This document shows, piece by piece, positions 7,730 through 50,384 of a stretch of 64,000 nt of DNA (position 1 is the first letter of the stretch; each line of letters opens with the position of its first letter). Position numbers and translations under genes: made by a program. The DNA is from Saccharomycopsis phalli (taxonomy: Eukaryota > Ascomycota > Saccharomycetes > Ascoideales > Saccharomycopsidaceae). The notes beneath the pieces were generated by a model. The model ran no database searches, was not told the origin of the DNA, and was given only the letters and a program-made list of their open reading frames with translations. Location: NCBI GenBank assembly GCA_020342235.1, contig CP073215.1, positions 372,001 through 436,000 on the forward strand, given 5' to 3'.

Positions 7730-8302
7730 TGTAACGAGAAAAGGTCAAGTCTACTCTACACGTGATTGTGTTCGGAATGTCCCACATATTACACATGTAC
7801 AAATCCATTCTTAGGAAAAGTATAAATAGCTGTTTAAGTCGCTAGTAATGAGAGATCTTAAGTTCATGACGTACTTAGTGTTGTCTCTTCTCTGATGGGG
7901 ACCTTGCACTAATAGTAATAAATAAATAATAAGTAGTAGTAGTGAGCTCAGTAGGATACGAGGTATTATTGATAGTGCCGGGCTATCTTACAAACGTATA
8001 CTATATTTATTTTGAACTAAAGATCTTCAGGTCTAAACTAATATCTTTTATACCTGCATCTCTCACATATACGTGTCCACTGTGAGGTGGCGGAGTCATA
8101 TTGCGTATCATCATAGATCGGCGCCTATGCTTCCCATGTTGCTTATTCCGCTTATCACGTGACCATCTTCTTGTATCATACTTCGTATGACGTCAGTTCA
8201 CTTTAGAACTATTTACAACTTATATTTGTAGTTACTCTTATTATTTTATTGATTAACTCGATATAAGTGTTATAACAGAAACGTTGAATAAATTCTGTTA
8301 TA
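7730..8302 (+). repeat. Solo LTR of the G3/D gypsy type, split by a B-family LTR
   Basis: The left part (7730-7866) opens TGTAACGAGAAAAGGTCA and includes a TATA box (AAAGTATAAATAG); the right part (8196-8302) ends TTCTGTTATA. Both parts match the LTR of gypsy element G3 in order, including the block around 'acaacttatat..tgtagtta'. The flanking pentamers are TGGAA and TGAAA, a probable slightly mutated target duplication. Its right end lies 56 bp upstream of tRNA-iMet. Confidence 0.75.
7867..8195 (-). repeat. Solo LTR of copia family B, target duplication GTTCA
   Basis: On the plus strand it runs from TGACGTACTTAGTG to GTATGACGTCA, 329 bp, the same as the LTRs flanking element B. GTTCA precedes and follows it exactly. 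It is inserted within the older gypsy LTR at 7730-8302. Confidence 0.9.
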
Positions 8303-9991: not shown

Positions 9992-10012
9992 GGTGAGCGT
10001 GGTAGTTAACTC

Positions 10013-15524: not shown

Positions 15525-15598
15525 CACCGGACCTGGGACTCGAACCCAGAGTCTCCTGATTAGAAGTCAGACGCCCTAACCAATTAGGCTAGCCCGGC
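15525..15598 (-). tRNA. tRNA-Arg (TCT)
   Basis: On the minus strand the gene reads GCCGGGCTAGCC to GTCCGGTG, with a paired acceptor stem (two G-U pairs). The anticodon TCT is at 15562-15564 in the arm TCTGACTTCTAATCAGG, and the T-arm is GGGTTCGAGTCCC. It has no intron. Its upstream flank (15599-15613) is the target of a stack of gypsy-type insertions. Fourteen bases of its anticodon arm are complementary to the primer site of element B. Confidence 0.96.
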
Positions 15599-15613
15599 AC
15601 TCTCTGCGTTGTT

Positions 15614-16055
15614 TGTAACGGGCAATCCTCGGTACCTCTCCTCTGGAGTATAGAAGTTACACGTGAATGGCACGTGAATGCATACAACATGCAATGAACA
15701 ACAGGAAGAGGAGCGGGCTTGTGGGTGAACAAGGTATAACCCTTGTGAAGATACGTCTTTAGGTCACGTACATCAAGATACCGGTATACTCTTTCCTATT
15801 AAGGATAAAGAAGGTCTAGGCCGTCCTAAAAGGGATTCTGACGCCTTTACCAGACGCAAGTCAATGGCACACCGCCACCATATAGAATAATATAAATAGC
15901 TGGGAAACCTGCTATGAAGCTAACTCACTCTGGGAGAAATTCCATCTTAGCTTATTACAACAAACATTATTGTAAGCTTCTTCTATCCCCTCGGAATAGT
16001 ACTTTTATTGAGGTAATACTGAATATCCTGACGATTTGGGATATTGATTATTACA
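15614..16055 (+). repeat. G1 5' LTR
   Basis: TGTAACGGGCAATCC to GATTATTACA, 442 bp, with a TATA box (AATATAAATAGC) at about 15888-15900. By eye it is identical to 25998-26439. Confidence 0.95.
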
Positions 16056-16057
16056 GT

Positions 16058-16075
16058 TGGTAGCGCCACAAGGTT
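16058..16075 (+). promoter_or_regulatory. G1 primer-binding site for tRNA-iMet
   Basis: TGGTAGCGCCACAAGGTT, two bases after the LTR, is the exact complement of the 3' end (with CCA) of the tRNA-iMet gene at 8359-8430. Confidence 0.93.
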
Positions 16076-16083
16076 CATCAAGG

Positions 16084-16863
16084 ATGTCTGACGAAACAAG
16101 CGACGTGTCCTCCAGACGGAAGGAATTCATCTGGAATGGTATTCCACCATTGGCCGAAGGAGACCCACCGGCGGTGGTGTCACAATTCATCTGGAAAGCC
16201 AGGAGAACATTTGGTGAGTTAGACGATAGTGTTGAAGATCGTTTACTGTACATCGGTGCCCGAATGGAAGGAACTGCTGCGCTTTGGCATCATAATCAAG
16301 CACGGCTCTGTGAGGAAGACGACTCCATTGAACCGTATCTAAAGGCGTTGGAAGATAGGTTCTTACCAAGAAATTACCAATGGATGATCCGCCAACGCGT
16401 ATTCTTTTGCAAAATGGGCAACAATTCCCTACAAAAGTATATTCAAGACTATGGACAAAATATCAGTGAAATGCCCAAAGGTTACCTCCCGCTACAGACT
16501 AGCATCGACCTCTTTGTCTGCGGTCTCCCTCACAAATACAGGGAAGACATAATTAACCAGGAGCCTCAAACTTGGTTGGAAGCAGCGCACATCGCCGAAA
16601 AGATGAATATTCGTCCTAAGGAAGCTTTTAAACCAAAGGAACGTCCTGCCGCTAACAACAAACGAAAACGGGATGAACCTGAAAACGATAAATCTTCGTT
16701 AAAATGCACCTTTTGTCACAAAATAGGCCATTTGGCGTCTAGTTGTTTCAACCGGTTGAAAAGGGTAAAAGTGAACAATTTACAAGTTGAGTCGCTGAAT
16801 GAATCAGAGACTAATACTGAGAACGATGATGAAAAGGAGTTGCTCAGTTCAAAAAACTTCTAG
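16084..16863 (+). CDS. G1 Gag
   Basis: From the first ATG after the primer site, the protein starts MSDETSDVSSRRKEF. It has the LTR-type Gag/capsid region (FIWKARRTFGELDD, LKALEDRFLPRNYQW) and ends with one zinc knuckle of CX2CX4HX4C type (CTFCHKIGHLASSC) after a basic stretch. Gag forms the particle and binds the element RNA. The pol frame follows at -1 through a slippery heptamer. Confidence 0.88.
   Translation: MSDETSDVSSRRKEFIWNGIPPLAEGDPPAVVSQFIWKARRTFGELDDSVEDRLLYIGARMEGTAALWHHNQARLCEEDDSIEPYLKALEDRFLPRNYQWMIRQRVFFCKMGNNSLQKYIQDYGQNISEMPKGYLPLQTSIDLFVCGLPHKYREDIINQEPQTWLEAAHIAEKMNIRPKEAFKPKERPAANNKRKRDEPENDKSSLKCTFCHKIGHLASSCFNRLKRVKVNNLQVESLNESETNTENDDEKELLSSKNF
16851..16857 (+). promoter_or_regulatory. 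Candidate -1 frameshift heptamer at the G1 gag-pol junction
   Basis: A AAA AAC in the gag frame, directly before the last codons of gag. The pol frame lies at -1 and is open from here. A -1 (or +1) shift between gag and pol is a known expression device of LTR elements. Confidence 0.7.
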
Positions 16864-19322
16864 GGTCTGTCTCCATCCGAGGTCAGTTGCCAGACCCTAC
16901 TTGCTTTAGCCAAAGTAAAGAGCCCGGAAGTAAACCATTAGTCATTATTAGTTTGGACATCCAAGGTCGGACTATCAAGGCTTTGGTGGACCCAGGGGCC
17001 GCTTTATCTTGCTTGAATATACAAATTCGTCAATCATTACATCTTCCTGTCAAAAAGGCTGAGCGGCCAATCTCTGTTCAGGACGTAGCCTTAAGACACA
17101 TTGAAGATATAGACTCATGGACTCAAGCAGAATTTACATTTGGCGACCTTCCGGATAAACCTAACCACAATCTTAAGTTTTATATCATGAAAAATTGTCC
17201 CCATGATTGTATCTTAGGGTTGCCTTTTATTTGGGATCATTACGATCTTTTCAAGAATATTATGGACCAGGAATTGTTGAGAAATCAGCCCCGGACTATG
17301 AACGCTATACAGCGGAATCAAGGAGAAGCGCCCATTCAAATCATCACAGCAGCGAAGGCCGCTAGAATGATGAAAACAGCGGACAATGAGTTTTACACCA
17401 TACTTATTAAACCCAATCCGTTGTGGGACGTGAAACCTGAGAATGTTCCTAACGGGACTAACTCTGTTGAATTATTGGAACTGTGTAATGCAGACCCCTT
17501 GTCAAAGACCTGTCATACACGGATATCACCCACAGTGATGGGGGCCGTTCAGGCTCAAGAAATTGAAAACAAGCACTCACGTGCTGCCCTGAATCAGACG
17601 GAAACGTCAAACCTTAATATAAGTTCATCGACGCAGAAATGTCTCGATAACGAGTACTCTTCCAACGACAACCTAACGGCAATCGTTGGAGATGTTATTG
17701 TTGGTCTGTTACCCACCATTAAGAGGAACACGAATTCCAGTTCAAACATGGCTGTGAATATCAATCTGGTTCTGACTGCTTCCATAGGAGACCCTAGGGT
17801 GAAAGTCCTTCTCCTGGAGTTTAGCGATGTGATCAGTAATGAATTACCGATTGGAGGTACTTCTTTCAAGAAGGTGATGCATCATATCCATATCCTCCCC
17901 GGACGTCAACCTAGTTATCAGAATTACTACAGGTTAAGTCCGGACAATCGAGCTGAATTGAAGAACCAAATTGAGGAACTTATTCGGAGCAATCGAATTT
18001 TCCCCACGTCGTCTCCCTACGGAGCGCCGGTTTTATTTGTTAAAAAAAAAGACGGAAGCAAAAGACTCTGTGTGGATTATAGACGGTTAAATGAAATTAC
18101 AGAAAAATCTCGGTTCCCCCTCCCACGTATCGAAGACTTGTTGGACCTCATACATGGAGCTAAGATATTCTCTAAATTGGATTTGGTCAGCGGGTATCAT
18201 CAAATTTTGATAACTCCAGAAGACAAACACAAGACGGCTATGGTGACTCCGTTTGGACAATACGGGTGGAACGTCATGCCATTTGGGCTTTGCAACGCGC
18301 CAGCGACGTTCCAAGCCGTCATGAATAAGCTCCTCCTTCCGCTTGAAAAGTTTTGTGTGGTTTATATTGACGATGTGCTCATATTCTCGCCAGACGAAGC
18401 GTCCCACAAACGACACATACGCACGGTATTAGAAACCTTTCGGCAAGCTCGATTAATTGTCAGCCTGAAGAAATCACAGTTCTACCTCAAAAGTATGGAC
18501 TTTCTTGGGTATAAAGTGTCGGATAAGGGCATTCATGTTACGGACTCGCAAATAGAGTCAGTGAAACGATATCTAGTCAAAACACCAGCTCAAGTGAGAT
18601 CGTTTGTTGGACTTGCAAGTTATTATCGCCGGTTCATTCGGGGATTTGCCGAAATTGTGCGACCCCTACATTTGTTTGCGAACGATAAAGTTCAGTGGTC
18701 TAACGACCAAGAGACGGCGGTAGAAACTCTTAAGGAGGCATTAACAACCGCTCCGACGTTGATTGTTTTCGACCCAGCACTAACGTGTCGAGTCACAGCC
18801 GATGCATCAAACTTCACGGCTGGAGCAGTACTTGAACAATTTGATAATGATGGAACCACAAAAGGAGTGGTTGCCTACATGTCTAAACAACTTCAAAATG
18901 CCCAACTCCGGTATCCGGTACGGGAAAAAGAATTACTAGCTATAGTTTTAGCTTTGAGACAGTGGAAACACTATTTATCGGCTCCGTTTGAGATTTTCAC
19001 GGACCATCACTCTTTGAAATATTTAAACTCGTCGAAAAGCGAGGATAATCCGCGTTTGATCAGGTGGCTTCAGTACCTTGCTAATTTCAATTATACGATT
19101 CACTACAAGTCGGGTCATTTGAATGGAGCTGCCGACGCGTTAAGTCGCTGTGTACTCAGTGCGATAGTAACTTCTAACGAAGGAACCGGAGGCTCTTTGC
19201 AATACACAGAGGTGTCCAAACACCCTGGTACTCAACCTATTGAAAAAGAAGAGTACCTTGCAGACCCCAATTTTAAATTAATCTATCAAGTTTTATTTCA
19301 ACTGGCACCGTGTCCGAAAGAA
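16864..19322 (+). CDS. G1 Pol, first part: protease, reverse transcriptase, RNase H
   Basis: Protease shows LVDPGAALSCLN and the C-terminal CILGLPF. Reverse transcriptase shows FPLPRIEDLLD, SKLDLVSGYHQI, MPFGLCNAPATFQ and the catalytic YIDDVLIFS. RNase H shows DASNFTAGAVLEQ, REKELLAIV and TDHHSLKYLNSS, then the end ADALSRCVLS. The domain order protease-RT-RNase H before integrase is that of Ty3/gypsy. The frame runs into the nested element A1. Confidence 0.9.
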
Positions 19323-19326
19323 GGTT

Positions 19327-22300
19327 ATGATGCATCCTGCAAGCGTCCTGCAGTTCCCCTCTGAATTAACATTGACTGGTCCAGAGACTTATCATGTTTG
19401 GATGAAGGAACTCGAGGACTTTCTTTTTGGCTTCGGGGTCGGCTTACTTCAATACGCCGAAAATGGAACTCTGAGCATCGAACTGGACGATATCTCGGAC
19501 ATTTCTTCTGCTTTCTTTATTGAACAATTGGATAGCGTGTTTGGTATTGTTCTCAAGGCAAGTATTAGCCAAGAGATTCGCGGAATTATTCGCTCCACGC
19601 ACTCACGTCTGACTGCTAGAAATCAATTTTTGTTTCTTCAAGAGAAGTATGGTACTCTTCCACTCCCAGTGGCTCTCACTAGCGCTGGGATTCTGGAAGA
19701 GGCTACTAGGCCCACTGAGTTTGTTGACATCAGGGCAATGCTTCAACGCAAAAATTTGTTGGTTAGGCAGCAATTGACTAAGGAGGCAATCATTGCATTA
19801 TGGACTTTGGATAACATGATGCAACTTGGTGTGCCATATCCGGTTATCTCAAGCGTCATTAAAGAGCTTGAACACAAGGGGATTACTACTAATACTCTTC
19901 TGTATCAGGTCTTGCATGAGATAACTGGATCGCATGAGTATGTTCGTCTGAACAGTCTTGCACTTTTGGGACACGATTCTCTGTCTAAGAAGACGTCCAA
20001 ACCTCGTCGCAAAGGTAAAAAGAAGGATAAGCAACAACCATATGATGAGGAGTCTCCTCAAGGTATGTTGGCTTATTCCTTCCTTGGACATCTGTTACTG
20101 ATACCAACATTTCTTGATACTGGTGCCAGTGGACATTTCTTTTCTGACATTCGTTTCTTTCAAGACATGATTCCAGAGAATGGCTCTATTCTGGGTGTTG
20201 CTGGAAACCTTGCAATTGTTGGGAAAGGTACAGTTCGGATTTCTACTTCAGCTGGACCTTTTATTCTACATGATGTTGGTTACACTCCTAACGGTATTGC
20301 TAACCTTATCTCGGTTGGAAAAGCTTCTAATCATAAGTTAGAGTTTCTCTTCAATCATCAAGGTGCCACTATCCGCTCCACCAAGAAAATGCTTGCTCAT
20401 CGAGATCCACTTTCAAACCTTTACACTGTTTCATGTGAACCTTCTACTGTGATTCCGAAGCAGATTGCTTACAAGGCTGTGTCCTCTGGCCGTGATATTG
20501 ATCGCTGGCATAGAAGACTTGGCCACCCTAGCGCTTCTGTTATGGCCTCGCTTGTTAAGATCCATCCACTCTGGAAGGCTGGTCAGAGTTTACTGAGTTG
20601 TACCGGATGTATTACTGGTAAAACTGTTGACTCTACTCCTAAAGAACGGACCACCAATCCTTCTCAGCCACTTGAGTTAGTCCATGCGGATCTTTGTGGG
20701 CCATTTAACTACGGATCCTACGATGCATCTCGGTATTTCTTGACTATTATTGACGGCTATACAAAATGGACCACTGTTGTTTGCCTCAATAAGAAATCTG
20801 GATGCACTCAAGGTATCATTAATTTTATTAATACCTCTGAAACAATGTTCCGCAGTAAAGGATTGACTTACTGCGTTGGTACTCTCCGTACAGATAATGG
20901 AGGTGAGTTTGTGAGTGAGGAATTGACTAACTTCCTCACCAAGCGTGGCATCTCTCACGAAACCACGGTTCCCCATCATTCGTATCAAAATGGCGTTGCC
21001 GAACGAATGAACCGTACACTTCAAGATAAAGCCCGCGCTCTTATGCTTCATACCAATGTTCCAGCTCAACTTTGGCCTGAAGCAATCAATACTGCTGTTT
21101 TTTTGGCTAATTGTACGCCATCACGCTCTATTGATTTTGATGTCCCATACAAACGATGGTATGGTCGCTCTTTCAACTACAAATTTCTCCGAGAATTTGG
21201 ATGTGTTGCTTATGCTATTATTCCTAAGGCCCTCCGTCAAGGAAAGCTCGATGCTAAAGCCTCTCCTTGTGTCATGATTGGCTATGAATTGCAACGAAAA
21301 GCATATCGACTCTATGACCCCAGAACAAATAAGGTTATTTGCGCTGCTCAAGCAATTTTTGAGGAGGATAAATTCTTTTATCCAACTGTGTCTCTGGCGC
21401 TGACTAGCACAATCAATCCTCCTCAAATTTCTGGGGTTGGCAATCCAAAGATTGGAGGGATTCATTCTCTACCTATGAATTCTCAGCCAGCTATTTCTAT
21501 GACTAGAGATGAATTGACAGTTGAATCCGAGCTTGACCCTCTGGACACCTCGTTGATAGTGGACGATAATGATACAGTATCTAAATCAGATGCATACGGT
21601 AATGCGTCTGAGTTGGCTGAAGATACTGGATCTGAGCTTGGTTACTTAAGGGATCATAATACTGCCTTAATTCGCACTGCTGCTCGCGAAATTGGAAATG
21701 AATTAGTTGTTTCTGGTTCATCCAAGTCAAATGAACTAACTATCGCTGATGCTTCAGATGCTGAAATTAACCTGTCCTCTACTATTGATCTGATTGATGT
21801 GAGTAATCCTAATGGTTCTAATGAGAATCATCTTGTCCTTGATGATCCTCAACCAAGTCGTGAAGCCATCACGTACCCTGGATTTCTGCACACGCCAGAA
21901 GAGCCTGAGTCTCATGCGGATGAGATCAGTGACTCAGAGATATCTGACCCCAGACGGTTGGAATATATCCCTGGAACTACTGACCTGGTTGCAGGTAGTA
22001 CTTCGGGATCACCCCAACTTCAGGTTGTGAAATATGTATCACAATCTACTTCTGCGGAGTCTGATGCTTCACTGTCGCTGGACAATCATGTTGCCCAACA
22101 AACATCACTGTCTCGTCCTGCTACTCCTCAAGCACAAGAAGTTCCTTATACCAATCCCATTGATTATAAGAACTCCAGTTCATCTCACAATCTCTTCAAG
22201 TATGATCGGTCTCCGTCAGACAAGCGGCCTATCCCATATCCAAGGGTTAAGCGCTATGATCCCAACTATAACCCGTTTTGTGGTGATATACCTCCGACTA

Positions 22301-24288
22301 CTTTTGATAATCTTCCAAAGACACCTCAAAATGAGATTATCTATAAGTACTACGGAAAGCTGAAGATTTCACGTACTAAAATTCCGGATTCTGATCTCAG
22401 ATATCTGGAAGGTGTATCTACTTCAGCTGGTCCTCCTCCTCCTCTGCCGCCTTCGCCGCCTCCGCCTCCACCTTCTGCTTTGCCGCAAAAGCGTCTTATC
22501 CGTCACAAAGGCTCCCAACCTAAGCCACTTTTTCCTGGTCCGCTTAGTTCTGACGAACATGATCCTACTACCCACCGTTCGTCTTCAGGGAGGGATAAGA
22601 AGCCTCGTGTCTCTGATATTGTCACAAATGGTTCTTCTAATGATGGTGTCCTGACATCTGTTAAGACGCCACTCTCAGATGACACAGATGAATCCGATAT
22701 GAATACGAATGGTGTGAATTATCCTGCTACTTGTTTTATGGCTGCTAAGCATTCTCTTGAGAATGTACCTATGACATTTGATCAAGCTGTTACTTCTGAT
22801 GATGCTTACTTATGGAAAGATGCTATTCAAAAGGAAATGGAAGCCCACTATGAGAATCAGACTTTTCTGTTAGTTCCACCTAAGCAAGGTCGTCGACCTA
22901 TTACTTGCCGTTGGGTTTTTACAATTAAGAGTGATGGTCAACACAAGGCACGACTTGTGGCTAGAGGTTTTACTCAGATTAAAGGACTTGATTATGTGGA
23001 AACTTTTGCGCCTGTCATTAGGTATGCTTCTATTCGAATCATGTTGTCCATTGCTGCAAGATATAGACTTACTATTCATCAGATGGATGTGAAAACGGCT
23101 TTTCTCAATGGTGATTTAAGGGAAGACCTTTACATGATTCAACCTGAAGGTTTTGTGGTCAAAGGAAAAGAAGATCATGTTCTTAAGCTTAATAAGTCGA
23201 TTTATGGTTTGAAGCAAGCTCCAATGGTTTGGAATGACAAAATCAATGAAGTGTTACATGTGATTGGTTTTAAGCAAAACTCTGCGGAGTATTGTTTGTA
23301 TTCTAAGAAAAATGGGAATTTGTTTATTATGGTCGCACTTTATGTCGACGATCTTCTCATTGCTGGAAATAATCAGACTGAAATTGATAAGGTTAAAGCT
23401 CAATTGATGCTGCACTTTAAGATGAAAAACCTAGGAGTTGCTAGCAAGTTTCTTGGAATGAACATTAGTCAAGATAAGGCCTCAATACTGCTTTCTCTTC
23501 ATGATTATGTTCACCTGATGCTAAAGGAGTATCAGATGGTAGATTGCAATCCTATCTACACACCAGCGGATCCTAATCAGGATCTAACTATAACTGATGA
23601 CTCAAAGGACTGGGATGCCACAATGTATCGATCCTTGGTTGGTAAATTACTTTTTGCTGTTAATACGGTCCGGTTTGATATTGCTTATATTGTTGGTGTG
23701 TTATCAAGATATTTACAATCTCCAAAGGAAAAGCATTGGGTTGCTGCGAAGCGTGTTCTTAGATATTTGAAGGCAACAGAGGATATGAAAATTGTTTATT
23801 CCAGAAAGGATCATGGGAATTATCTTTTGGGATATTGTGATGCTGACTGGGCTACTGATAAGACGGAAAGAAAGTCAACTACTGGTTTCATGTTTAGGTA
23901 TAGCGGTGGTGCTATTACTTGGAGATCTAGAAAACAGTCGACTATTGCTTTGTCGACAGCAGAAGCCGAATACATGGCATTAACTGACGGTATTAAAGAT
24001 GCTCTATGGTTACAGCAGGTGTTTGCAGAACTTGGTATCCCCTTGGCAAAATTGATAGTTCATGATGACAATGTGAGCTGCGTTAATATTGCTAAAAACC
24101 CAGTGTCACATGATCGAACTAAACATATTGATATCAAGCATCACTTTATCAGGCATCATGTGAAAAATGGCAACATTGAACTACGACACCTAACTACTGA
24201 CAAGATGCTAGCTGATATGCTTACCAAGGGATTATCAAGAGAGCAATTTCAAAAACTTCGGATGCTGAGTGGTATGAGGAAATTTTAA
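19327..24288 (+). CDS. A1 Gag-Pol polyprotein (copia)
   Basis: A single 1653-residue frame carries all domains in copia order. Gag is at about 1-245 and has no zinc knuckle. Protease has LDTGASGHFFSD (about 263-274). The GAG-pre-integrase motif is WHRRLGHP; integrase has LRTDNGGEF and HHSYQNGVAERMNRTL. A Pro/Ser-rich spacer with a polyproline run is near 1035-1055. Reverse transcriptase has KARLVARGFTQ, MDVKTAFLNGDL and YVDDLLIAG; RNase H has GYCDADWATD and STAEAEYMAL. In other A copies the gag start codon lies inside the 5' LTR (MSAKERLSKLQQ), so here the first Met is internal. The fused gag-pol and iMet-half primer resemble Ty5 and Drosophila copia. Confidence 0.92.
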   Translation: MMHPASVLQFPSELTLTGPETYHVWMKELEDFLFGFGVGLLQYAENGTLSIELDDISDISSAFFIEQLDSVFGIVLKASISQEIRGIIRSTHSRLTARNQFLFLQEKYGTLPLPVALTSAGILEEATRPTEFVDIRAMLQRKNLLVRQQLTKEAIIALWTLDNMMQLGVPYPVISSVIKELEHKGITTNTLLYQVLHEITGSHEYVRLNSLALLGHDSLSKKTSKPRRKGKKKDKQQPYDEESPQGMLAYSFLGHLLLIPTFLDTGASGHFFSDIRFFQDMIPENGSILGVAGNLAIVGKGTVRISTSAGPFILHDVGYTPNGIANLISVGKASNHKLEFLFNHQGATIRSTKKMLAHRDPLSNLYTVSCEPSTVIPKQIAYKAVSSGRDIDRWHRRLGHPSASVMASLVKIHPLWKAGQSLLSCTGCITGKTVDSTPKERTTNPSQPLELVHADLCGPFNYGSYDASRYFLTIIDGYTKWTTVVCLNKKSGCTQGIINFINTSETMFRSKGLTYCVGTLRTDNGGEFVSEELTNFLTKRGISHETTVPHHSYQNGVAERMNRTLQDKARALMLHTNVPAQLWPEAINTAVFLANCTPSRSIDFDVPYKRWYGRSFNYKFLREFGCVAYAIIPKALRQGKLDAKASPCVMIGYELQRKAYRLYDPRTNKVICAAQAIFEEDKFFYPTVSLALTSTINPPQISGVGNPKIGGIHSLPMNSQPAISMTRDELTVESELDPLDTSLIVDDNDTVSKSDAYGNASELAEDTGSELGYLRDHNTALIRTAAREIGNELVVSGSSKSNELTIADASDAEINLSSTIDLIDVSNPNGSNENHLVLDDPQPSREAITYPGFLHTPEEPESHADEISDSEISDPRRLEYIPGTTDLVAGSTSGSPQLQVVKYVSQSTSAESDASLSLDNHVAQQTSLSRPATPQAQEVPYTNPIDYKNSSSSHNLFKYDRSPSDKRPIPYPRVKRYDPNYNPFCGDIPPTTFDNLPKTPQNEIIYKYYGKLKISRTKIPDSDLRYLEGVSTSAGPPPPLPPSPPPPPPSALPQKRLIRHKGSQPKPLFPGPLSSDEHDPTTHRSSSGRDKKPRVSDIVTNGSSNDGVLTSVKTPLSDDTDESDMNTNGVNYPATCFMAAKHSLENVPMTFDQAVTSDDAYLWKDAIQKEMEAHYENQTFLLVPPKQGRRPITCRWVFTIKSDGQHKARLVARGFTQIKGLDYVETFAPVIRYASIRIMLSIAARYRLTIHQMDVKTAFLNGDLREDLYMIQPEGFVVKGKEDHVLKLNKSIYGLKQAPMVWNDKINEVLHVIGFKQNSAEYCLYSKKNGNLFIMVALYVDDLLIAGNNQTEIDKVKAQLMLHFKMKNLGVASKFLGMNISQDKASILLSLHDYVHLMLKEYQMVDCNPIYTPADPNQDLTITDDSKDWDATMYRSLVGKLLFAVNTVRFDIAYIVGVLSRYLQSPKEKHWVAAKRVLRYLKATEDMKIVYSRKDHGNYLLGYCDADWATDKTERKSTTGFMFRYSGGAITWRSRKQSTIALSTAEAEYMALTDGIKDALWLQQVFAELGIPLAKLIVHDDNVSCVNIAKNPVSHDRTKHIDIKHHFIRHHVKNGNIELRHLTTDKMLADMLTKGLSREQFQKLRMLSGMRKF

Positions 24289-24299
24289 TTATGGGAGGG

Positions 24300-24569
24300 T
24301 GTTGTGATGATTAAAATCCGAGACGGCATTAGCTATCGGCATTGGTTAAACGGCATTAGCTAAACAGCATTAGCTAAACGGCATTACAATACGCCGTAGC
24401 TAAATGGCATTAGTTAAGCGGCATTACGACACGCCGTAGCTTATAAGAGGACTATAAATAAGAGGCAATGTGCCCACAATAAGTAAGTAGTTTACCTATA
24501 AGATAAATAAGTTAATACAAACAGTTTATCAAAGATGTCAGCTAAAGAAAGACTTTCCAAATTACAACA
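24300..24569 (+). repeat. A1 3' LTR (subtype I)
   Basis: TGTTGTGATGATTAAAATCC to CCAAATTACAACA, 270 bp, preceded by the purine tract GGGAGGG. It holds copies of a GGCATTAGCTAAAC-type repeat, a TATA box (GGACTATAAATAAG) and, near its end, the gag start codon of the family. Confidence 0.93.
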
Positions 24570-25963
24570 AAGAACACAAAGCTTTATTGAATTTTTATCT
24601 GGCCAGAAAATTAATTGGCAACGACGTGTTAGTTTTCCGCACGTCTCTGTTGGATCACTCCAAGGTATGTCTACCCAGAGGCAGGTGGCAGACCAAGATG
24701 ATACACATGTACCACAACGCTGCTGGTAGTCTACACATGGGTCCTCATAAGATGGTACGGCAAATCCAGTCGCTGGGCTTTTACTGGCCCGGAATGGAGC
24801 GTTCTATACGCAAACACCTACTTAGATGCGAAACATGCCGAACCATCAAACCCTCCAACCAAGCAACTAATGGGCTTGCTCAACCGCTAGAAGTCCCTAT
24901 TGCTAGGTGGGCAGATCTCTCTATGGATTTCATCTCAGGGTTCCCAGAGGATGAAGGATACGATTGTATATTGGTCGTGGTCGACCGTCTTACAAAGCGG
25001 GCGAAATTCATTCCATGCAAGAAAACGTGTACAGCAGAACAGTTTGGTGAATTATTTTTCAGACACATTGTGTGTGAACATGGAGTACCTAGGTCGATAA
25101 TATCGGACCGAGGAATATTATTTGTGAACAACTTTTGGAAGACAGTTACAGAAAGAATGGGAATTGATCATCGACTATCCACCAGTGCACATCCCCAAAC
25201 CGATGGCCAAACGGAAAGAATGAATCGCAACTTGATACAGGCTCTTAGAGTGTGCAAGAAGGTACAGGGAAACCTGTGGTGCCGAATGTTACCAGTGGCA
25301 CAGTTCGCGTACAACAGCCAGTATCAAGAATCTATTAAAACATCTCCTTTCTTTGCAGATCTAGGCTATCATCCAAGATACTGGGAGATAGTGGTAGGAT
25401 ACGATATACCTAGACTTTTCAATGACAAAAGGATTGTGGCTGGCAATGCGTTTGTGGAAACACAGGATAAAAATATGGAATGGCTTAAACTGAACATGGC
25501 TGAAGCTCAGATTAGACAGAGTTATCAGACGAACAAGCATCGAACCGATGTAACCTTCAAAGACGGAGAATTAGCTTTACTACAAAGAAAGGCTCTTTCA
25601 ACGTCCTCAGAACGAGAAAAGAAATTTGAAGCCCCATTTACTGGGCCGTTCCGCGTGACTCCTACCGACAACCCAAACAGCTACGTTGTGCAGGTAGGTC
25701 CCAGAAAGAAATTAACAGTCAATGTGAAAAATTTAAGGAAGTATTACTCAACGGAACTTGCGGAAACTGGTAGTTGGTATGAGGAAAACATAGAACTGAT
25801 TGTGTTAATTCTCGAAATCAGTGATCACCATGCGGTAGTACTCTATAGGGACAAACCTGTCCCAGTCACGATTCCCGCACGTTGGATTGCGAAAATTTCA
25901 GACAAACTTATGAACCATCTACTCCAAGACCTTGAAGAATTCGAACCCTTACGGGATTGGTAG
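24570..25963 (+). CDS. G1 Pol, second part: integrase
   Basis: After the A1 duplication the gypsy frame resumes. It shows the H2C2 zinc domain (HNAAGSLHMGPHKM.. and CETC), the catalytic core (DLSMDFISGFPE; SDRGILFVNNFW; HPQTDGQTERMNR) and a GPY/F-type module (FTGPFRVTPT). A further C-terminal block (AVVLYRDKPVPVTIPARWI) is shared with G2 and G3. Nothing resembling a canonical chromodomain is seen. Confidence 0.88.
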
Positions 25964-25997
25964 GTTAAGGGACGACCTACGCTTCAGGGGGGGAAAC

Positions 25998-26439
25998 TGT
26001 AACGGGCAATCCTCGGTACCTCTCCTCTGGAGTATAGAAGTTACACGTGAATGGCACGTGAATGCATACAACATGCAATGAACAACAGGAAGAGGAGCGG
26101 GCTTGTGGGTGAACAAGGTATAACCCTTGTGAAGATACGTCTTTAGGTCACGTACATCAAGATACCGGTATACTCTTTCCTATTAAGGATAAAGAAGGTC
26201 TAGGCCGTCCTAAAAGGGATTCTGACGCCTTTACCAGACGCAAGTCAATGGCACACCGCCACCATATAGAATAATATAAATAGCTGGGAAACCTGCTATG
26301 AAGCTAACTCACTCTGGGAGAAATTCCATCTTAGCTTATTACAACAAACATTATTGTAAGCTTCTTCTATCCCCTCGGAATAGTACTTTTATTGAGGTAA
26401 TACTGAATATCCTGACGATTTGGGATATTGATTATTACA
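25998..26439 (+). repeat. G1 3' LTR
   Basis: 442 bp, identical by eye to the 5' LTR. TTGTT follows directly and matches the pentamer before the 5' LTR. Confidence 0.95.
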
Positions 26440-26445
26440 TTGTTT

Positions 26446-26787
26446 TGTAACGGGAATTGGTCAGGATCATTGAGCACGTGTTAATTGTCACGTGCCAAGT
26501 TAAAAGTTATGAATCCATCTAAACATATGAATACATCGAATGATATTATTACATCTAAAGACATGAATCCAGTTAAAGATATTTGGGTGAAAAGATATAA
26601 GCCTCCACAGTAGTGGCAAATATTACTATATATAGCGCTTAATAAAAGGCGTAAAAAGGATTAACGAAATCTTACAAGACTTCTTAGAACATCCTACAAC
26701 TTATTCTGTGTAGTTTTACTAAGGATTAATTCGACTATTCAGCATAATAAGTGTTTTAACGAGAGAACTTGAACATTTCTCGTTACA
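26446..26787 (+). repeat. Solo LTR, family F, target duplication TGTTT
   Basis: TGTAACGGGAATTGG to TTTCTCGTTACA, 342 bp, flanked by TGTTT on both sides. It is a gypsy-type LTR by its ends. It lies directly behind G1 and is one layer of the tRNA-Arg insertion stack. Confidence 0.88.
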
Positions 26788-26791
26788 TGTT

Positions 26792-27077
26792 TGTAACCAG
26801 GAAGGTACACCTCCCTGGTTAGGAGAAATGATACAGCGGTTAGAGACCCTGGTTGTATATGTGCACGTGACGGGAGGAAGCCGGGTTATATATGCACGTG
26901 AGAGGAATGAAGCCCTGGTAAGGGGTGAGTATAAATATACAAACGGTGGCGTGAAGGAGGTCACGCAAGGTTACGGTCATAATATTGTAAGCTTTCATAT
27001 ACGTGAATAAGGAATCACAGACGCCTTATTCAGCATAACCAGCATTCTCCGAAGTAGATCGGATCTAACTGGTTACA
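26792..27077 (+). repeat. Solo LTR, family H
   Basis: TGTAACCAGGAAGG to TCTAACTGGTTACA, 286 bp, with 'gagtataaatata' as TATA box. The flanking pentamers are TTGTT and TTGTG (one difference) once the later F insertion is discounted. Confidence 0.82.
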
Positions 27078-27080
27078 TTG

Positions 27081-27843
27081 TGTAACGATAAAATATCGTT
27101 TACACTAGACACGTGGGATACACGTGTCGGTCACATGGAATGGCACGTGAACATCACATGCCAGCGTGCGGATAAGGGATGATGCCGATAGTGACGAGAA
27201 AGGAAGTCAAAGCACTGCCGTGTACAGAGATGAGTATGGAAGAATCCCAAAAGGGATTTGAGGCAACCTTTAATTAAGGAAGTAATCCTGTCTCTGGAGT
27301 AATATAAATACAGAAGGGAATAGCTAATAAATCATCAAGTAACTTAGAGATACAGTGTAATGAGGAAGAGTTACTATATTACATACAGTCTGAGATAACT
27401 ATATGTCGTAGTTTATATTTCGGTCTGATTAGACATAGTATTATGATGAACTATAAACTACTTAATTATTTGTTTTGTTCCTTTAGGATATGGATAACCG
27501 GATTGGGCTCTGCTAGATATAATGTCTAGCTTGAATTGTTTAGGTAAGTTGTCCTTTCTATAAAGAGGAAGTCCTCTTTATATAGACGTTAGGAGGTCCT
27601 CCGAGGGATTAATCTTCCAATGATATTGTACTCAATCCTATTGGAGGACCACATCCACCGTCTAATCAAGGGTGGAGGTTGGTGAGACATCACCAACGCC
27701 AACCTCGCATCAGTGAACTATTCTGCAGTGGTTGTGAACCACGACACTATACAACTTATATCTTGTAGTTAACAATACTTCATATTGTTAATTGGTCGAT
27801 TTATAAGTGATTGTAACAATACCACCAGGATTTTATTGTTACA
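27081..27843 (+). repeat. Solo LTR, family D (D1), split by LTR E
   Basis: The outer parts (27081-27403 and 27747-27843) match, in the opposite orientation, the D LTR at 51513-51895, from TGTAACGATAAAATATCG to the end ATTGTTACA. CGTTG follows it, and the same CGTTG lies before the whole stack at 15607-15611. Confidence 0.85.
27404..27746 (-). repeat. Solo LTR, family E, target duplication CTATA
   Basis: 343 bp with ends TGTCGTAG and CCACGACA on the plus strand, flanked by CTATA on both sides, inserted in D1. Its reverse complement resembles the LTR of copia element C at both ends (TGTCGTG start; 'aaaggaaca' near the end), so it is probably a relative in minus orientation. Confidence 0.8.
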
Positions 27844-27849
27844 CGTTGT

Positions 27850-27935
27850 TGTAACAAGAATTAGTCAAGTTATCTCGTTAAAACACTTATTATGCTGAAT
27901 AGTCAAGTTAATCCTTAGTAAAACTACACAGTATA
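27850..27935 (-). repeat. Fragment of an F-type LTR
   Basis: TGTAACAAGAATTAGTC to 'agtaaaactacacag' is the reverse complement of the 3' end of the F LTR, somewhat diverged. Element C cuts it off on the right. Confidence 0.7.
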
Positions 27936-28230
27936 TGTCGTGATCACCTGATGTTCCGATATTACAAGACTACATTGCATGGGCGGTGCTCACTTGTGTA
28001 TCAGGGACAATGGTCATACTATGGTGATACAAGGGTGAACACTCTGTGTAGCAACATAGGATGACCACTGGAACGACCATATAAGACTAGGTAGAAAACT
28101 ACCTAGGACATCTATCGTTTGAAGGACCTTTGGTTTAGATTCAATCATTCAATCTTAAAGGAACAACAAAATAGAGTTTATATTAGTGCTTCATAGTCAT
28201 TAATTACCCCTACATATATAAACTTTAACA
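27936..28230 (+). repeat. Element C 5' LTR
   Basis: TGTCGTGATCACCTGATG to AAACTTTAACA, 295 bp. Its last base is the A of the gag start codon. Confidence 0.75.
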
Positions 28231-31200
28231 TGGTGCGTGAACAAGGAATCGAACCTACCACTCAGGATTCACTGAAGGATGGCAATCAACTAGAACCGAA
28301 ACTTAAACTGGCTTTAAAGTTGGAAGAGCCCAGTCTAGTCAGGTTAAAAAAGCTTCCTCCCCAGACAGCACACTTTGATTTTTTAGACTGGCAGACAGAG
28401 TTTGAGAGTGTCCTCGAGGAGTTAGAACTCAGGGATATTATCGAATCTGATGATCCCAAGGTGTGCCAAAAACAAACATCAACCAGAAAGAATTTAATTT
28501 CAGCAGTCTTAGAACAAAGCTTTGACGCAGAAAGAGTCAAAGAAATGCTCAGATATCCAAAGGCATTTTACAGTCAACTTTGTTCGGAGAGAAGAGAATA
28601 TTATATGGCTAATCGAAACTCAATTGCCCAACTGCTTGTGAAGTTTGGCACGGACTCAGACACACTTGCAGTAGCCGGAAGGATTACTCGTTATCAGGAA
28701 ATAGAAGGAATAGACGGTATGGAGTTGGAGCAACGAATTATACAAGAAAGTGGGTGGACAGACGGACCAGGACTGGTTGCTATGAACGAGACAAATTTAC
28801 AGATTTGGAAAAAGGTTATCATAGGGATTCGACGAACACGAGGTTCGACAATCTCCGCTGCTCCGGTGTCATCAGATATTGCCCACTTGGACGTGGAAAA
28901 GAGTAGAAAGGTGTTTCCAAAGAAACCTAGACACTCGAAGAAGAAAAAGGCCACAAAGGAACGGATTCAGTGTCAAATTTGCAAGAAACAAGGCCATGGG
29001 GCTGACCAATGTTATAAGTTATACCCTAAATTGCGTCCAAAGAAAGAATCGGAACCCAGGAAGTGAAGTGGAAGAATCAGAGTCCCAGGTGTATACTTTT
29101 TCAGAATTTGATGCGAAGACTCTTGATGGCGTCCCTGAACTTGGAATTTATGATACAGGTGCTGCAATATCGATCACTACGATTCGATTGTTATTGTCAG
29201 ATTTGAAGGATGGGCAAATTAGGTGCCGACCACTATCTAACACTATTGAGAAAGCTATAGGTCCAGGAAAATTAAAAGTTCCATTGGAAGATGAGTCTGT
29301 TGAGATTGATGTCTACTATATTCCAAAGGAAAAACTTGCTCGAGATGTTACGATTATTGCTGCTGAAGATCTTATGAAGAAAGGAGTGGAAGGTCATTAT
29401 GCTAGTCCGGATCCTTATTTGACATATAAGGAACAAAAGTACCCAGTTATTAAAAGTGGTAGTTTTATGCTTATACCTATTAGTCCAGTCCCGTATACAT
29501 ACTTCTTGGATGTTACGAGTGATCCTGCTCTATTGCTACATCAGAGGTTTGGACACGCGAATTTAAAACACTTATCACATTACCGCCGTAAGTAGAATTT
29601 TTCGCAAGAAGAGGTAAAGCTATTGAAGAAGGGTTACTCAGAGTGCATGGAATGTTTTCTTGCTCGGCCATTAACACAAAACAGGAAGAGTGTGTTTCAT
29701 CAAAGGGCAACGGTGCCGAGACATACCCTTCATGCGGATATCATGTTTATTGAAGACGTAACTGTTCTTGTGTTGGTAGATGAATTTAGTAAGGTGTGTC
29801 AAGCGACGGTTATCAACTCCAAGAAGGCTGCAAGAACTGTGTTGGAAGAGAAGTTGGAAAAGGGGAAGTGCAAACGGTTCTTTGCTGATAATGGAGGAGA
29901 ATTTAGGAGCCTTCTGTTTTTGTAATTTTTGAAGAAACATGGAATTGAAAGGGTCGAGATACTACCAAAAGCGAGTAAGATTAATGGATTGGTTGAACGG
30001 TTTAATGGTATTATAAAGAAACGGTTGAATAGACTTCTAATGAGTCTTGTCTATAGAGACCCTACAGCTCCATTGACACATACGAAACTGGATTTAAAGA
30101 AGTTTTATCTTCAGTATATGCTCAATCACATCACGTTTCAATATAACCGTTCATCACGTCCAAGCAATAGGCTGATTCCTATTTTGCTTCATCAGAGTCC
30201 AAGGCAGAAGGGACTTGATGGCAAACACTTGTTGGACAAGAATCTCTTTCACCGTTTTGCGGCAGCTGTGATCTATGATGCAGAAGAAAGAAGGAGTCCA
30301 TTAGAAGTACCCCGTGAAGGTAGATTTTTGGGAATTGACGAAAGTAAGATAGGATATTACATTCAAGATGTTTCAACGGGAGAAATCAAATTGAGAAAGA
30401 ATGTCCAATTCTATCCAGACGAGAGAATTGCTTATCTACGACAGAGTGTTCCTGAAAATTATACGAATCTAAAGTCATCCGATACTCATAGACCTGTCAC
30501 ACGTCAAGTGTCAAAGAAGTCGAAACCTATCTCTGAGGAGCAGAGTGTGGAATCAAGTGAACAGGTTGTTACGTCGAAGATACTTGAAGAAGGGGAGTCT
30601 CAGGAAGGGGGAGAATCTCATGAATCAGGAGAATCGAGCGTACAACAGGGGACATTACGATCGGAGATCACAGAGCATCAGGAGAAGCTTGTTAATCTTC
30701 CGAGTCGTCTCCAGAAACAATTGAGTATCGATGAAAATCACATTAATTTTATTGCGAAGTTGGAATCTGAAGACCCAGAAAAGCGTGTTGCTGCGAGACA
30801 AACTGAATTGGATTCTCATACCCATTATGGTACCTATGAACAGCTATGGGTTGATGAATCAGTAAGTTTAATGTCAATGAGATGGGTCGACACCACTAAA
30901 GCCGATGGCACGTATAAGAGTCGATTAGTGTTGAGAGGAAATCAGACCTCCAAGTATGAGGGCAAAACGGAAGATGAAGTTTATGCTCCCACTATCAGTT
31001 TAATGCTCTTGAGAATAGTATTAACTCTTGCGGTGCAACATGGCTGGTGTCTTGCTCAGGCAGATGTGAAAACCGCATTTCTTAACGCCGAATTACCGGA
31101 AGATATAGTGATCTATGCCGATCCGCCGTCAGAGACTTATGGCGATCACGAACCACCACCCGGTAAGAAGCTAGCTTGGAAAGTTAAGAAGGCAATTTAT

Positions 31201-32404
31201 GGTTCAAAAGAAAGCCCAAGAGCGTGGTATGACTATTTTAGTAGTCATCTCACTGAGGATGTGCATTTTACAGAGTTGGACGGTTTCATCTCGTCGGTTT
31301 ACCATAACACTGAAAACACGATGATGGTTATTGTTTATGCGGATGATATCTTGGTGGTCAGTAAGAAAAAGTCACAGGCGTGCGAGTTTTTGACCGAAGT
31401 GGGAAAGAAAGTTGAGTTGAAAGTCCTCGGTTTTCCGAAGAAGATACTAGGGTTGAAGATCTCTCAAATTAATCCTAAGGAGCAGTGTGAACAATCTCTT
31501 GTATGCAGGAATGGCCTTATTATCAATAGAGAACCTCAAGATATGTCACGCACTCCAGAGATCCCAGACGTTGGAAAACGCAGGTCTAAATTGGTTCCTA
31601 TCAAGCCGTATGTGAATTTAGACGTCAACCCTAGGCAATCAACCCAAAAGAATTTTTATCAGTACGCAGGGATATTGAATTATGTTCAATCTGCGTATCG
31701 CCCGGATTTATCGTTTGTTGCGAACTATGTCTCTACCATGGCTAATAAATACATCGTATGATGAGGTGTGGAGGAAAGTGACTGATGCTATGCAATATTT
31801 ATACAGCACAAGTGAACATGGTATAAAGATCACTCCAACCAAAACATTGTCAAGAATCTCAATATACTCAGATGCGTCGTTTAAAGGTGAACGGAATCTT
31901 CAGCTCCCCGAGACGTATATGTCATCCTATTATGGGTATGTGATCAAACTTCACGGTGTGCCCGTTTTATGGCGAACGGACCATACCGACAGAATGGCGA
32001 AATCAACCACTGAGGTGGAAATGCAGGCACTCAAGGATGCTGTCGTGGCTGCAGAGAAGGTTGAAGCACATATGAAGCTATTCCTCGATAATATGGGTGA
32101 GGAAGAAATGAAATTTGAGATAGATCGCAATGACAGCCACTTTATGATAAAGGAAGGAAAGGTAGCCTATCAAGACAATAGTCTGGTGATATCGAAGTTG
32201 AACAAGGCTAGGACTAAGGAGGTTAGCTTTGTGTCAAACTGGTGGTTTATACGGGAAGTCTCAAGAAGAGAGGAGCTTACCGTTTTGAAAGTATCGACAG
32301 ATGAACAACAGGTGGATTTGTTCACAAAACCCTTGGCTTTTACGGTACGAAGCAAGACATGGGTAGATAAGTTATTGGAACTTGGAATGTCTGTCACCAG
32401 ATAG
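28230..32404 (+). pseudogene. Element C gag-pol coding region (broken)
   Basis: Gag (about 278 residues, from the ATG at 28230) ends with a CX2CX4HX4C knuckle (CQICKKQGHGADQC). Pol overlaps it in the +1 frame. Recognisable parts in order are protease (GIYDTGAAISIT), GAG-pre-integrase (LLHQRFGHANLKHLSHY), integrase (FADNGGEF; KINGLVERFNGIIKK), reverse transcriptase (YKSRLVLRGNQTS; ADVKTAFLNAEL; VIVYADDILVV) and RNase H (IYSDASFKGERN; STTEVEMQALKDAV). The whole has a few breaks. The order is copia; the +1 overlap recalls Ty1. Confidence 0.85.
28231..28255 (+). promoter_or_regulatory. Element C primer-binding site overlapping the gag start
   Basis: Starts TGGTGCGTGAACAAGG and continues with ATCGAACC, the complement of a tRNA B-box. 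The 25 bases look like the complement of a tRNA 3' end from CCA through acceptor stem, T-stem and T-loop. The donor tRNA is not in this window. Confidence 0.7.
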
Positions 32405-32949
32405 GCGGTGATTGGAGGATCCGAGATCTAAGAATTTCCTGATGGGAAAAAGAGCTCTGTGCTATCAGTTACATGAGACGTTTCAACACACGATGAAACA
32501 GTAACAGATAAGGAATCTAGATTGTTAAGTAAGTGTGAATGGTATACTATTTATATTCGAGTGACGACTTGAAGTATGTTGGAGCCGTGCTTTTACCAGT
32601 GAAGACCGGAGCGTCCTAAGGCATTTATGCTGACGTCCGCCATCTGATCTCGTAGGGTGACTAGTTGGTTGGTCCCAGTTGGCAGCTGCAACTGTCGCAA
32701 AACTGGCGTCCTTATCATCATCACCTGCAAACTTTGACCCATGGTCTACTGGTCTCCAGTGGAAAATGAGGGATGAGTAAAGTACACGGGAGGCTCTAAC
32801 GGTCAATAGGTTAGTTGCTGTATAACTATTGTTGACCAGCAGACATTGGACTATCATGAGGAGTGCACCCAATATTGATAATGGAATGTTTTGCATAGTA
32901 CGGGTTTTTTAGTGGGTTATGATTTTGATCATGAGTCCTACTCGAACTA
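32405..32949. other. Unassigned 545-bp segment between elements C and A2
   Basis: No match to other parts of the window. A minus-strand frame (32896-32525, 123 residues) starts MQNIPLSILGALLMIVQCLLV, which looks like a signal peptide, but the rest has no recognisable motif. It could be the untranslated end of element C, a host remnant, or chance. Confidence 0.3.
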
Positions 32950-41496: not shown

Positions 41497-41501
41497 AACA
41501 G

Positions 41502-41817
41502 TGTTATAATTAAAGGTCAAGGCGCCGTTGGATAATAATTATTAGCATCGGAGTGCAGAGAAGTCCGACCCGGTGCATAAGTATTATTTAAGACGGCCAT
41601 TGTTGTTAAATAATAAGGAGGGTTCTCACCCTCGTTATGAGACCAATTATTTAGTATTTATAGGACGTGTTCATTCTAGGAATGGGCATTCAAAAAGAGA
41701 AAGAGAATCATAGTTTATATTGTAGCTTAGAAGGACTGAAACAATAATCAGTCGAGCAAGTACAACAAGTTATAGATTAAACCAGGGAACTCAATAGCCC
41801 AGTCGAGAATTATAACA
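41502..41817 (+). repeat. G2 5' LTR
   Basis: TGTTATAATTAAAGGTC to CGAGAATTATAACA, 316 bp, with near-palindromic ends (TGTTATAATT / AATTATAACA). Confidence 0.93.
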
Positions 41818-41819
41818 TT

Positions 41820-41837
41820 TGGTAGCGCCACAAGGTT
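41820..41837 (+). promoter_or_regulatory. G2 primer-binding site for tRNA-iMet
   Basis: TGGTAGCGCCACAAGGTT, two bases after the LTR, identical to the G1 site and exactly complementary to the 3' end of the tRNA-iMet at 8359-8430. Confidence 0.93.
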
Positions 41838-41843
41838 GGAACG

Positions 41844-42893
41844 ATGTCTGAACGAAGAAACGAGAGGTTGTATAAAACCATCCCTACGTATGATGGAGCG
41901 AGCGAAATCAGCCTGATTATGGATTGGGCACGTATCTGTGAGAATATTCTCCCAGAAATCGACGATACTAGAAGGGAAAAACTTCTTATGGTCCAATCCA
42001 AGCTTAGAGGATCAAAAGCTCAAGCGTGGTTCCAGAAGTTTGTGGAGTCATGTAATACTAATGAAGAGGATACATCGTTGAGAGACATGGTAGACCATTT
42101 CAAAAACTACTTTCTTCCCCAAGATTATCAGTATCAATTGAAAGGACAACTCAATCAACTTCAACAGACCGGGCTGATTAAGGAGTATAATGTTGTAATT
42201 TGGAAAGTCTTTCTTTAGCTGACATCTTTGATAAACTGTTTGTATTAACTTATTTATCTTTTAGGTAAACTACTTACTTATTGTGGGCACATTGCCTCTT
42301 ATTTATAGTCCTCTTATAAGCTACGGCGTGTCGTAATGCCGCTTAACTAATGCCATTTAGCTACGGCGTATTGTAATGCCGTTTAGCTAATGCCGTTTAA
42401 CCAATGCCGATAGCTAATGCCGTCTCGGATTTTAATCATCACAACATATAATCTGCAGTTTGATCAAATAGTAGCCGATTTGTCTACTTATGACCGTGAA
42501 CAAACTTTGGGAAGTTATATGCGGGGTTTGGATGAAACGGTTTATTTACACACCATCGGATTTCTGCCACAAAACTTTATGGAGGCCCAAGTTATTGCTG
42601 AAAAATATGGAGTTGCATTGGAAACACTCAGAAGCAATGCCCCATTTAATCTGAGCAATAATCGATCTTACAGGGAACATAACCTGAGAAGGAGTCAATT
42701 CAACAACTCATACCAAAAGGGTAAGGGGAAGTTCAACAAAAAACGGGTATGCTATTTTTGTGATCGGACAGGACATTTGCAAAGAGATTGCGAAGAGTAC
42801 TTGAAAGCTAAGTCTTCCCGTAACGCGGCTATTAGCCTGCGAGAAGACAGATTTGATGACGCAGACTTGTCCGACGATTCAAAAAAAGAGTAA
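41844..42893 (+). pseudogene. G2 Gag, split by a solo A LTR
   Basis: From ATG 41844 (MSERRNERLYKTIPTYDGASE) the capsid region follows (WFQKFVESCN, MVDHFKNYFLPQDYQYQL), then the inserted LTR, then the second part with LGSYMRGLDETVYLHTIGFLP and a zinc knuckle CYFCDRTGHLQRDC. The end of the frame carries a run A AAA AAA at 42881-42887, a candidate -1 slippery site in the same position as in G1. Confidence 0.82.
42191..42446 (-). repeat. Solo A LTR in G2 gag, target duplication TATAA
   Basis: 256 bp, subtype I, plus-strand TGTTGTAATTTGG to CATCACAACA, with TATAA at 42186-42190 and 42447-42451. Confidence 0.95.
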
Positions 42894-42961
42894 GCCAATA
42901 CCAGAACGAGCCTCTCGTATCGGCTAACTTTAAACAAGCTGCTGAACCATCAGATTATCCG

Positions 42962-50373: not shown

Positions 50374-50384
50374 TTATGGGAGGG

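Follow-up and report, generated by a model that had tools for sequence, protein, structure and literature searches.

Retrotransposons of different families landed in succession at one spot upstream of a tRNA-Arg gene

Introduction

The flank of the tRNA-Arg(TCT) gene in the 64-kb stretch of contig CP073215.1 analysed here (the window; positions are counted from its first letter) raises the question of how several different long terminal repeats (LTRs) came to lie one behind the other next to a single tRNA gene. The window looks eukaryotic and yeast-like, with Ty3- and copia-type retroelements, a phosphate-transporter gene and an intron-bearing tRNA-Ser, and contains four tRNA genes according to Rfam and ARAGORN, i.e., Met at 8359, Ser at 10269, Arg at 15598 (minus strand) and Gly at 51908. 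A preliminary description had read the tRNA-Arg flank as a stack of at least five insertions, ordered by their target site duplications (TSDs) and attributed to Ty3-like targeting of RNA polymerase III (Pol III) genes. We find that retrotransposons of different families, four at least and probably five, inserted successively within a few bases of one spot upstream of this gene. Targeting of the Pol III start site by Ty3-like elements is, with considerable confidence, the best explanation.

Results

Stacked insertions upstream of tRNA-Arg

A base-by-base check bears out the stack. Outward from tRNA-Arg, which has a T-run on its 3' side, a flank of 15 nt is followed by the 10.8-kb element G1 (LTRs at 15614-16055 and 25998-26439), by the solo LTRs F, H and D1, and by F2, a fragment that matches the reversed F at 89% over 92 nt (Table 1). 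The 15-nt flank, which on the tRNA strand reads AACAACGCAGAGAGT, is the tRNA-proximal anchor of the stack and keeps the left copies of the target duplications. Those of G1 and H are located at 15609-15613, that of F is one base further out and that of D1 is at 15607-15611. The second copy of the D1 duplication, at 27844-27848, is now 12 kb away, and both copies are present as had been described.

Elements were removed in turn, starting with G1, and the flanking pentamers were compared each time. G1, F and D1 each show a perfect duplication, and the two copies for H agree at 4/5 positions (19/20 bases overall). Counted from the mature +1 of tRNA-Arg, the duplicated pentamers span -11 to -15 (G1 and H), -12 to -16 (F) and -9 to -13 (D1), which upholds the proximity of the target sites to the gene and corrects their previously given range of 9-15 nt to -9 to -16. 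After peeling, the first LTR base is located at -16 for G1, -17 for F, -16 for H, -14 for D1 and -15 for F2, the last of which has no duplication of its own and is therefore placed by position and spacer. The spacers between successive layers, of 6, 4, 3 and 6 nt, have the lengths predicted from 5-bp duplications at the peeled offsets, and their bases equal those of the tRNA-side anchor at all 18 of the 18 comparable positions.

The product of the single-spacer chances for this agreement is 2.4e-8, which is an upper bound because the offsets must chain as well. At the 62 control TTACA sites in the rest of the window, no following pentamer agrees with an anchor 5-mer at 5/5 positions, and four of the 62 reach at least 4/5; for all sites outside the stack, the corresponding fractions are 0.8% and 10%.

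Table 1. Positions of tRNA genes, retroelements and element parts in the 64-kb window.
Feature	Position	Strand	Remarks
tRNA-Arg(TCT), target gene	15525..15598	-	Rfam RF00005 64.7 bits; ARAGORN; mature +1 = 15598
tRNA-proximal anchor of stack	15599..15613	.	keeps left copies of target duplications
G1, Ty3-like LTR element	15614..26439	+	TSD TTGTT both sides
G1 primer binding site	16058..16075	+	18 nt complementary to the 3' end, CCA included, of initiator-type tRNA-Met in the window
G1 gag-like open reading frame, Ty3 capsid	16057..16863	+	PF19259 E=5.6e-11
A1, copia/Ty5-like element inside G1 pol	19323..24569	+	flanks AAGAA/AAGAA; 5' LTR absent
G1 integrase region, 3' of A1 insertion	24626..25963	+	phmmer to Ty3 7q5b E=6.2e-53
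F, solo LTR	26446..26787	+ (as read)	TSD TGTTT/TGTTT once G1 removed
H, solo LTR	26792..27077	+ (as read)	TSD TTGTT/TTGTG (4/5)
D1, solo LTR interrupted by E	27081..27843	+	TSD CGTTG/CGTTG
E, solo LTR inside D1	27404..27746	+ (as read)	TSD CTATA/CTATA
F2, F-type LTR fragment	27850..27941	- (opposite to F)	LTR end at -15 before later insertions
C, copia-like element after F2	27936..32947	+	RVT_2 E=1.1e-32; end no further than 32947, given the next element
H2, relative of H	14271-14527		
D3, LTR related to Ty3-like M LTR	7730..8302	+ (as read)	-57 of tRNA-Met; flanks TGGAA/TGAAA (4/5)
K, Ty3-like element upstream of D2	41502..51506	+	LTRs 315/316 identical; flanks AACAG/AGCAA (3/5)
D2, D-family solo LTR, 383 bp	51513..51895	-	LTR end at -13 of tRNA-Gly; flanks GCAAA/GATAA (3/5)
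tRNA-Gly(GCC)	51908..51978	+	second tRNA gene beside a Ty3-like LTR end
X and Y copia-type LTRs near tRNAs	7867-8195, 8597-8907, 15107-15441, 41036-41364, 10008-10178		

Two inner insertions were proposed within these layers, and both are confirmed by duplications on either side, CTATA for the LTR E inside D1 and AAGAA for the element A1 inside G1, although A1 lacks its 5' LTR. With its flanks, A1 occupies 19318-24574 and begins exactly at an apparent primer site, GGTTATGATG, which resembles the complement of the initiator tRNA anticodon half. Since it starts at this primer site, without a 5' LTR and yet with AAGAA on both sides, A1 looks like the integration of an incomplete complementary DNA (cDNA). 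By contrast, the proposal that an F-type fragment holds the copia-like element C is not confirmed. The second half of F2 was looked for near the far end of C and was not found, and F2 matches F over 92 nt only.

Family assignment of the layers

To which families do the layers belong? G1 scores above the Pfam cut-offs for Ty3_capsid, Asp protease, RVT_1, RNase H and an H2C2 zinc domain, and its rve core (E=5.9e-6) lies below the cut-off. Among PDB entries, the Ty3 structure 7q5b is the first match of the G1 integrase; for reverse transcriptase (RT)/RNase H, it comes second (E=2.2e-103) after 4ol8 among the best 60 of 205 matches listed. Entry 4ol8 is named only RT/RNase H, and we take it to be that of Ty3. 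For the RT of K and the integrase of a further element, M, 7q5b is again the first PDB match. The G1 LTRs end in TGTAAC...TTACA, and the primer sites of G1 and K, 18 nt long and located 2 nt after the LTR, both fit initiator-type tRNA-Met. By its coding sequence, in which capsid, protease, RT, RNase H and integrase follow the arrangement typical of Ty3/gypsy, G1 is a Ty3-like member of Ty3/gypsy (Metaviridae), with Ty3 as the nearest known element. A tRNA-Met of the initiator type, the predicted primer for both G1 and K, is encoded in the same window at 8359-8430. A comparison of part of the G1 RT (407 aa) with viral contigs gave 20 pattern matches, none of which was confirmed.

The F, H and D families are present in the window as solo LTRs only. 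The D family is probably Ty3-like, since its LTR shares 76.5% identity over 81 nt with the LTR of the Ty3-like M; the two copies D1 and D2 are about 95% identical to each other. F has a weak link to the M LTR (41 nt, E=0.018), and H shows no resemblance to it. F and H are grouped with these elements by their LTR ends (TGTAAC...GTTACA), the 5-bp length of their duplications and their position, and may be Ty3-like as well. The preliminary description had put this point more firmly.

Ty3-like LTRs at a second tRNA gene

The D-family solo LTR D2 ends at -13 of tRNA-Gly, which supports targeting independently of the tRNA-Arg stack. A Ty3-like LTR end is thus present 10-20 nt upstream of two of the four tRNA genes, and the chance of LTR ends lying in this interval at two different tRNAs is P = 8e-5, assuming 22 LTR ends placed at random. 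We counted 11 Ty3-like insertions in the window (G1, F, H, D1, F2, D2, K, a G-type fragment near 41.4 kb, D3, H2 and M), of which six are located at -13 to -17 upstream of a tRNA, five at tRNA-Arg (-14 to -17) and one at tRNA-Gly (-13). In this count, the G-type fragment and M are unscored, and K would be a seventh, placed at -14 of tRNA-Gly by spacer length only.

The flanks of K (41497-51511 with flanks) are odd, given that a young element should have matching ones. A clean second stack at tRNA-Gly, with D2 over K over the G-type fragment, would fit the positions; we do not claim it, both duplications being 3/5. Because the D2 and K flanks reach only this level despite the nearly identical K LTRs, either the tRNA-Gly locus appears to have been rearranged or there is no clean stack at this gene.

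The integrase C-terminus

In Ty3, the docking surface is formed by the integrase C-terminal domain (CTD) together with a vestigial chromodomain (PMC8632968). The integrase C-termini of G1, M and K align with 29 invariant columns of 178. A model of the G1 CTD plus tail, of moderate confidence, had a mean predicted local distance difference test score (pLDDT) of 65.9 and a predicted template modelling score (pTM) of 0.46. Its top three Foldseek hits are all chains of 7q5b, the complex of Ty3 with TFIIIB and a tRNA gene (E=3.4e-6, 6.7e-5 and 5.4e-3, i.e., two with E<0.001), with template modelling (TM) scores of at most 0.38 and root mean square deviations of about 10-12 A. Modelled alone, the tail has a mean pLDDT of 80.3 and the arrangement helix-b1-b2-b3-helix-helix, the order reported for the Ty3 chromodomain. 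Taken alone, however, the tail gives no significant fold match (best E=0.22) and no sequence match in Pfam or the PDB, so that a chromodomain there is no more than a candidate. Docking of the G1 integrase to TFIIIB is a plausible prediction.

Discussion

Targeting, insertion order and rival explanations

We read the layers outward from the gene as G1, F, H, D1 and F2, from youngest to oldest, and this order belongs to the targeting-and-stack reading that, taken as a whole, we regard as very probable. G1 is read as the youngest because it is nearest to tRNA-Arg and its LTRs are identical (442/442). The order in the preliminary description, which was the same, peels consistently, but the relative age of H and D1 is not fixed by the duplications. 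If D1 is the older, one substitution is needed, in the left copy of H; if H is the older, one is needed in the D1 flank (CATTG/CGTTG). In the latter case, with the same targeting at work, D1 would have entered at the boundary of H and F2, some 300 nt away from the tRNA, and not beside the gene. The H duplication would then become perfect (TTGTT, with TTG+TT restored after removal of D1), and the substitution in the D1 duplication would be the only one required. However, D1 would have had to hit the junction of an old LTR exactly, far from the start site, the match of its far flank to the tRNA-side CGTTG would be a coincidence, and the other D copy, D2, is located at -13 of a tRNA. Since the far flank of D1 equals the tRNA-side CGTTG and D2 also adjoins a tRNA, we infer that D1 is older than H, and consider the reverse order unlikely.

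Could the cluster have formed without targeted integration? Growth mainly via LTR recombination, with cDNA entering old LTRs or unequal exchange in place of fresh integrase-mediated insertion, would account for the imperfect flanks of K and D2, which resemble recombined ends, and the solo LTRs are evidence that LTR recombination does occur here. Homologous recombination, however, would not create four different LTR sequences with 5-bp duplications (three exact, one 4/5) at slightly different offsets, and we consider such an origin quite improbable. Survivorship always contributes to a genomic pattern, and a single 64-kb window is considered here, so that one might also envisage random insertions that persisted only in a harmless spot. 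Selection of this kind predicts a broad harmless zone, whereas the LTR starts fall within a 4-nt range (-14 to -17), with -13 at a second tRNA, which makes the absence of active targeting very hard to uphold. Wrongly joined repeats, for which a repeat-rich window offers opportunity, are scarcely credible as the cause, given that junctions at independent places obey the 5-bp rule.

Ty3-like targeting of the Pol III start site, with newcomers pushing older elements outward as had been proposed, is supported by the offsets, the duplications, the spacers, the Ty3-like coding sequence of G1 and the position of D2. Several observations nevertheless weigh against it. The H duplication matches at 4/5 only, a level reached by 10% of random sites, so that it is weak taken alone; the placement of H is carried by the chain of spacers and not by its own duplication. 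The flanks of D2 and K both match at 3/5, though the K LTRs differ at 1/316. D3 ends at -57 of tRNA-Met instead of about -15, H2 is about 1 kb off on the 3' side of tRNA-Arg, and the M end inside the window has no tRNA 5' end nearby (the other M end is outside the window). There is no coding copy of F or H within the window. By sequence, the G1 integrase tail gives neither a Pfam chromodomain nor a PDB match, and the best fold match of the tail alone has E=0.22, with a few HP1-type chromoshadow matches at E 0.8-1.5.

A possible mechanism

How could one site be used so often? In Ty3, cryo-electron microscopy places strand transfer at -6/-2 relative to the Pol III start, with a 5-bp duplication as the result (PMC8632968). 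For a start located about 10 nt before the mature tRNA (PMC5911963), the duplication is expected at roughly -12 to -16. In the same way, Ty3-like integrases may carry their cDNA to the putative Pol III start of tRNA-Arg, where insertion with a 5-bp stagger would fall 9-16 nt upstream of the mature tRNA. The duplication copy on the tRNA side would be kept, rebuilding the start-site sequence beside the gene at each insertion. TFIIIB occupies -15 to -32 of the start (PMC8632968), and would therefore rest on the new LTR after each event. TFIIIC recognises boxes within the tRNA gene (PMC5911963), and TFIIIC and TFIIIB, placed by this internal promoter, could reassemble on the newest LTR end and offer a presumed docking site. 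The next element would then insert on the tRNA side and displace the older ones outward, with F, H and D1 later reduced to solo LTRs. Continued use of the site would follow from the internal position of the TFIIIC boxes, which allows the complex to be put together again, and from the retained copy, which re-creates the sequence of the start site.

More tentatively, the start site of a tRNA gene may be a self-renewing landing pad, in which every duplication re-creates the sequence of the start and every new LTR end serves as the next TFIIIB platform. Unrelated Ty3-like families could then pile up without limit and leave an ordered record, resolved to single bases, of when each family was active. 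If true, a comparison of stacks across all tRNA genes would rank extinct families, of which nothing but solo LTRs is known, by relative age. The stack itself provides evidence, at the level of single bases, that a Pol III start site remains usable after at least four insertions, and it makes the tRNA gene a relative clock for retrotransposon families.

Comparison with known systems

A close parallel is Ty3/sigma of S. cerevisiae, which the elements described here resemble in capsid, RT/RNase H and integrase homology, in the 5-bp duplication and in the position at the Pol III start site; Ty3 inserts 1-4 bp upstream of the Pol III start (PMC5911963), or about 15 bp upstream of the mature tRNA (PMC5006619). 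Unlike in Ty3/sigma, the stack at one tRNA here contains, in addition to G, the three LTR families F, H and D, and TFIIIB binding is a prediction. This is likely a multi-family case of Ty3-type targeting outside Saccharomyces. Several Ty3-like families near tRNA starts in one yeast are also found in Yarrowia lipolytica, where Tyl3, Ylt1 and Tyl6 insert about 5 bp upstream of tRNA starts (PMC5911963). Tyl3 has TGTAAG/CTTACA LTR ends and an iMet primer binding site 2 nt after the LTR, and is located at a likely tRNA start site, though only two of its four solo LTRs are at such likely sites (PMC5014426). The portions of PMC5911963 and PMC5014426 consulted describe no multi-layer stack for these three families.

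Taa3 of Blastobotrys (Arxula) adeninivorans, also Ty3-like, is located 13 bp upstream of a tRNA gene (PMC4022394) and, unlike the elements at tRNA-Arg, is a single copy without a stack. In Dictyostelium, DGLT-A inserts 13-33 bp (mean 15) upstream of tRNA genes, and a table footnote mentions repeated insertion at one tRNA gene, after which the original distances could not be determined (PMC5006619); here, in contrast, they are readable for all five layers. Tj1 of Schizosaccharomyces japonicus, a Ty3/gypsy element, inserts just upstream of Pol III starts with a 5-bp TSD and, when tested in S. pombe, did so closer to the gene, at a distance of 5-11 bp from the mature tRNA end on its upstream side, and always in one orientation (PMC4600332). 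Unlike Tj1, G1 points away from tRNA-Arg and K, which is not adjacent, points toward tRNA-Gly. Ty3-type targeting itself is established; what is special at tRNA-Arg is that the original distances can be recovered for all five layers, and we found no description of a five-layer stack with every offset read in the consulted portions of the open-licence literature on such elements.

Other features of the window

When Rfam was searched at permissive settings for further, hidden Pol III genes, only the same four tRNAs and two matches below their family gathering scores came up. The gene at 10269-10366 was at first called tRNA-Ile(TAT) and became tRNA-Ser(CGA), with a 17-nt intron, once introns were allowed. 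With introns allowed, ARAGORN also reported a tRNA-Thr at 7658-7995 (245-nt intron), which was dropped as spurious because Rfam shows no tRNA there.

Of the eight insertions of copia-type X and Y LTRs (TGACGTAC...) counted, five are no more than 170 nt away from a tRNA gene, on either side of it, one of them only after removal of K and D2; the two 10-kb fragments were taken as one insertion, and a weak Y fragment at 13.6 kb was excluded. The chance of this proximity is 6e-7, or 3e-5 for 4/8 without the removal, with a threshold that was chosen afterwards. Four of these LTRs have exact 5-bp duplications (GTTCA, ATCAG, ATTAA and AATTA), and one X-type LTR is contained in D3. A looser, Ty1-like preference of the X and Y elements for tRNA genes is possible.

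Two further copia-type arrangements are located beyond tRNA-Gly. At 52841-53430, an A-family remnant joins two other copia elements; it consists of an LTR with 170 bp of 5' internal sequence and a further LTR in inverted orientation. At 53666-59488, the 3' LTR of an X copia element is followed by another gag start, as would be seen in two tandem copies with one common LTR.

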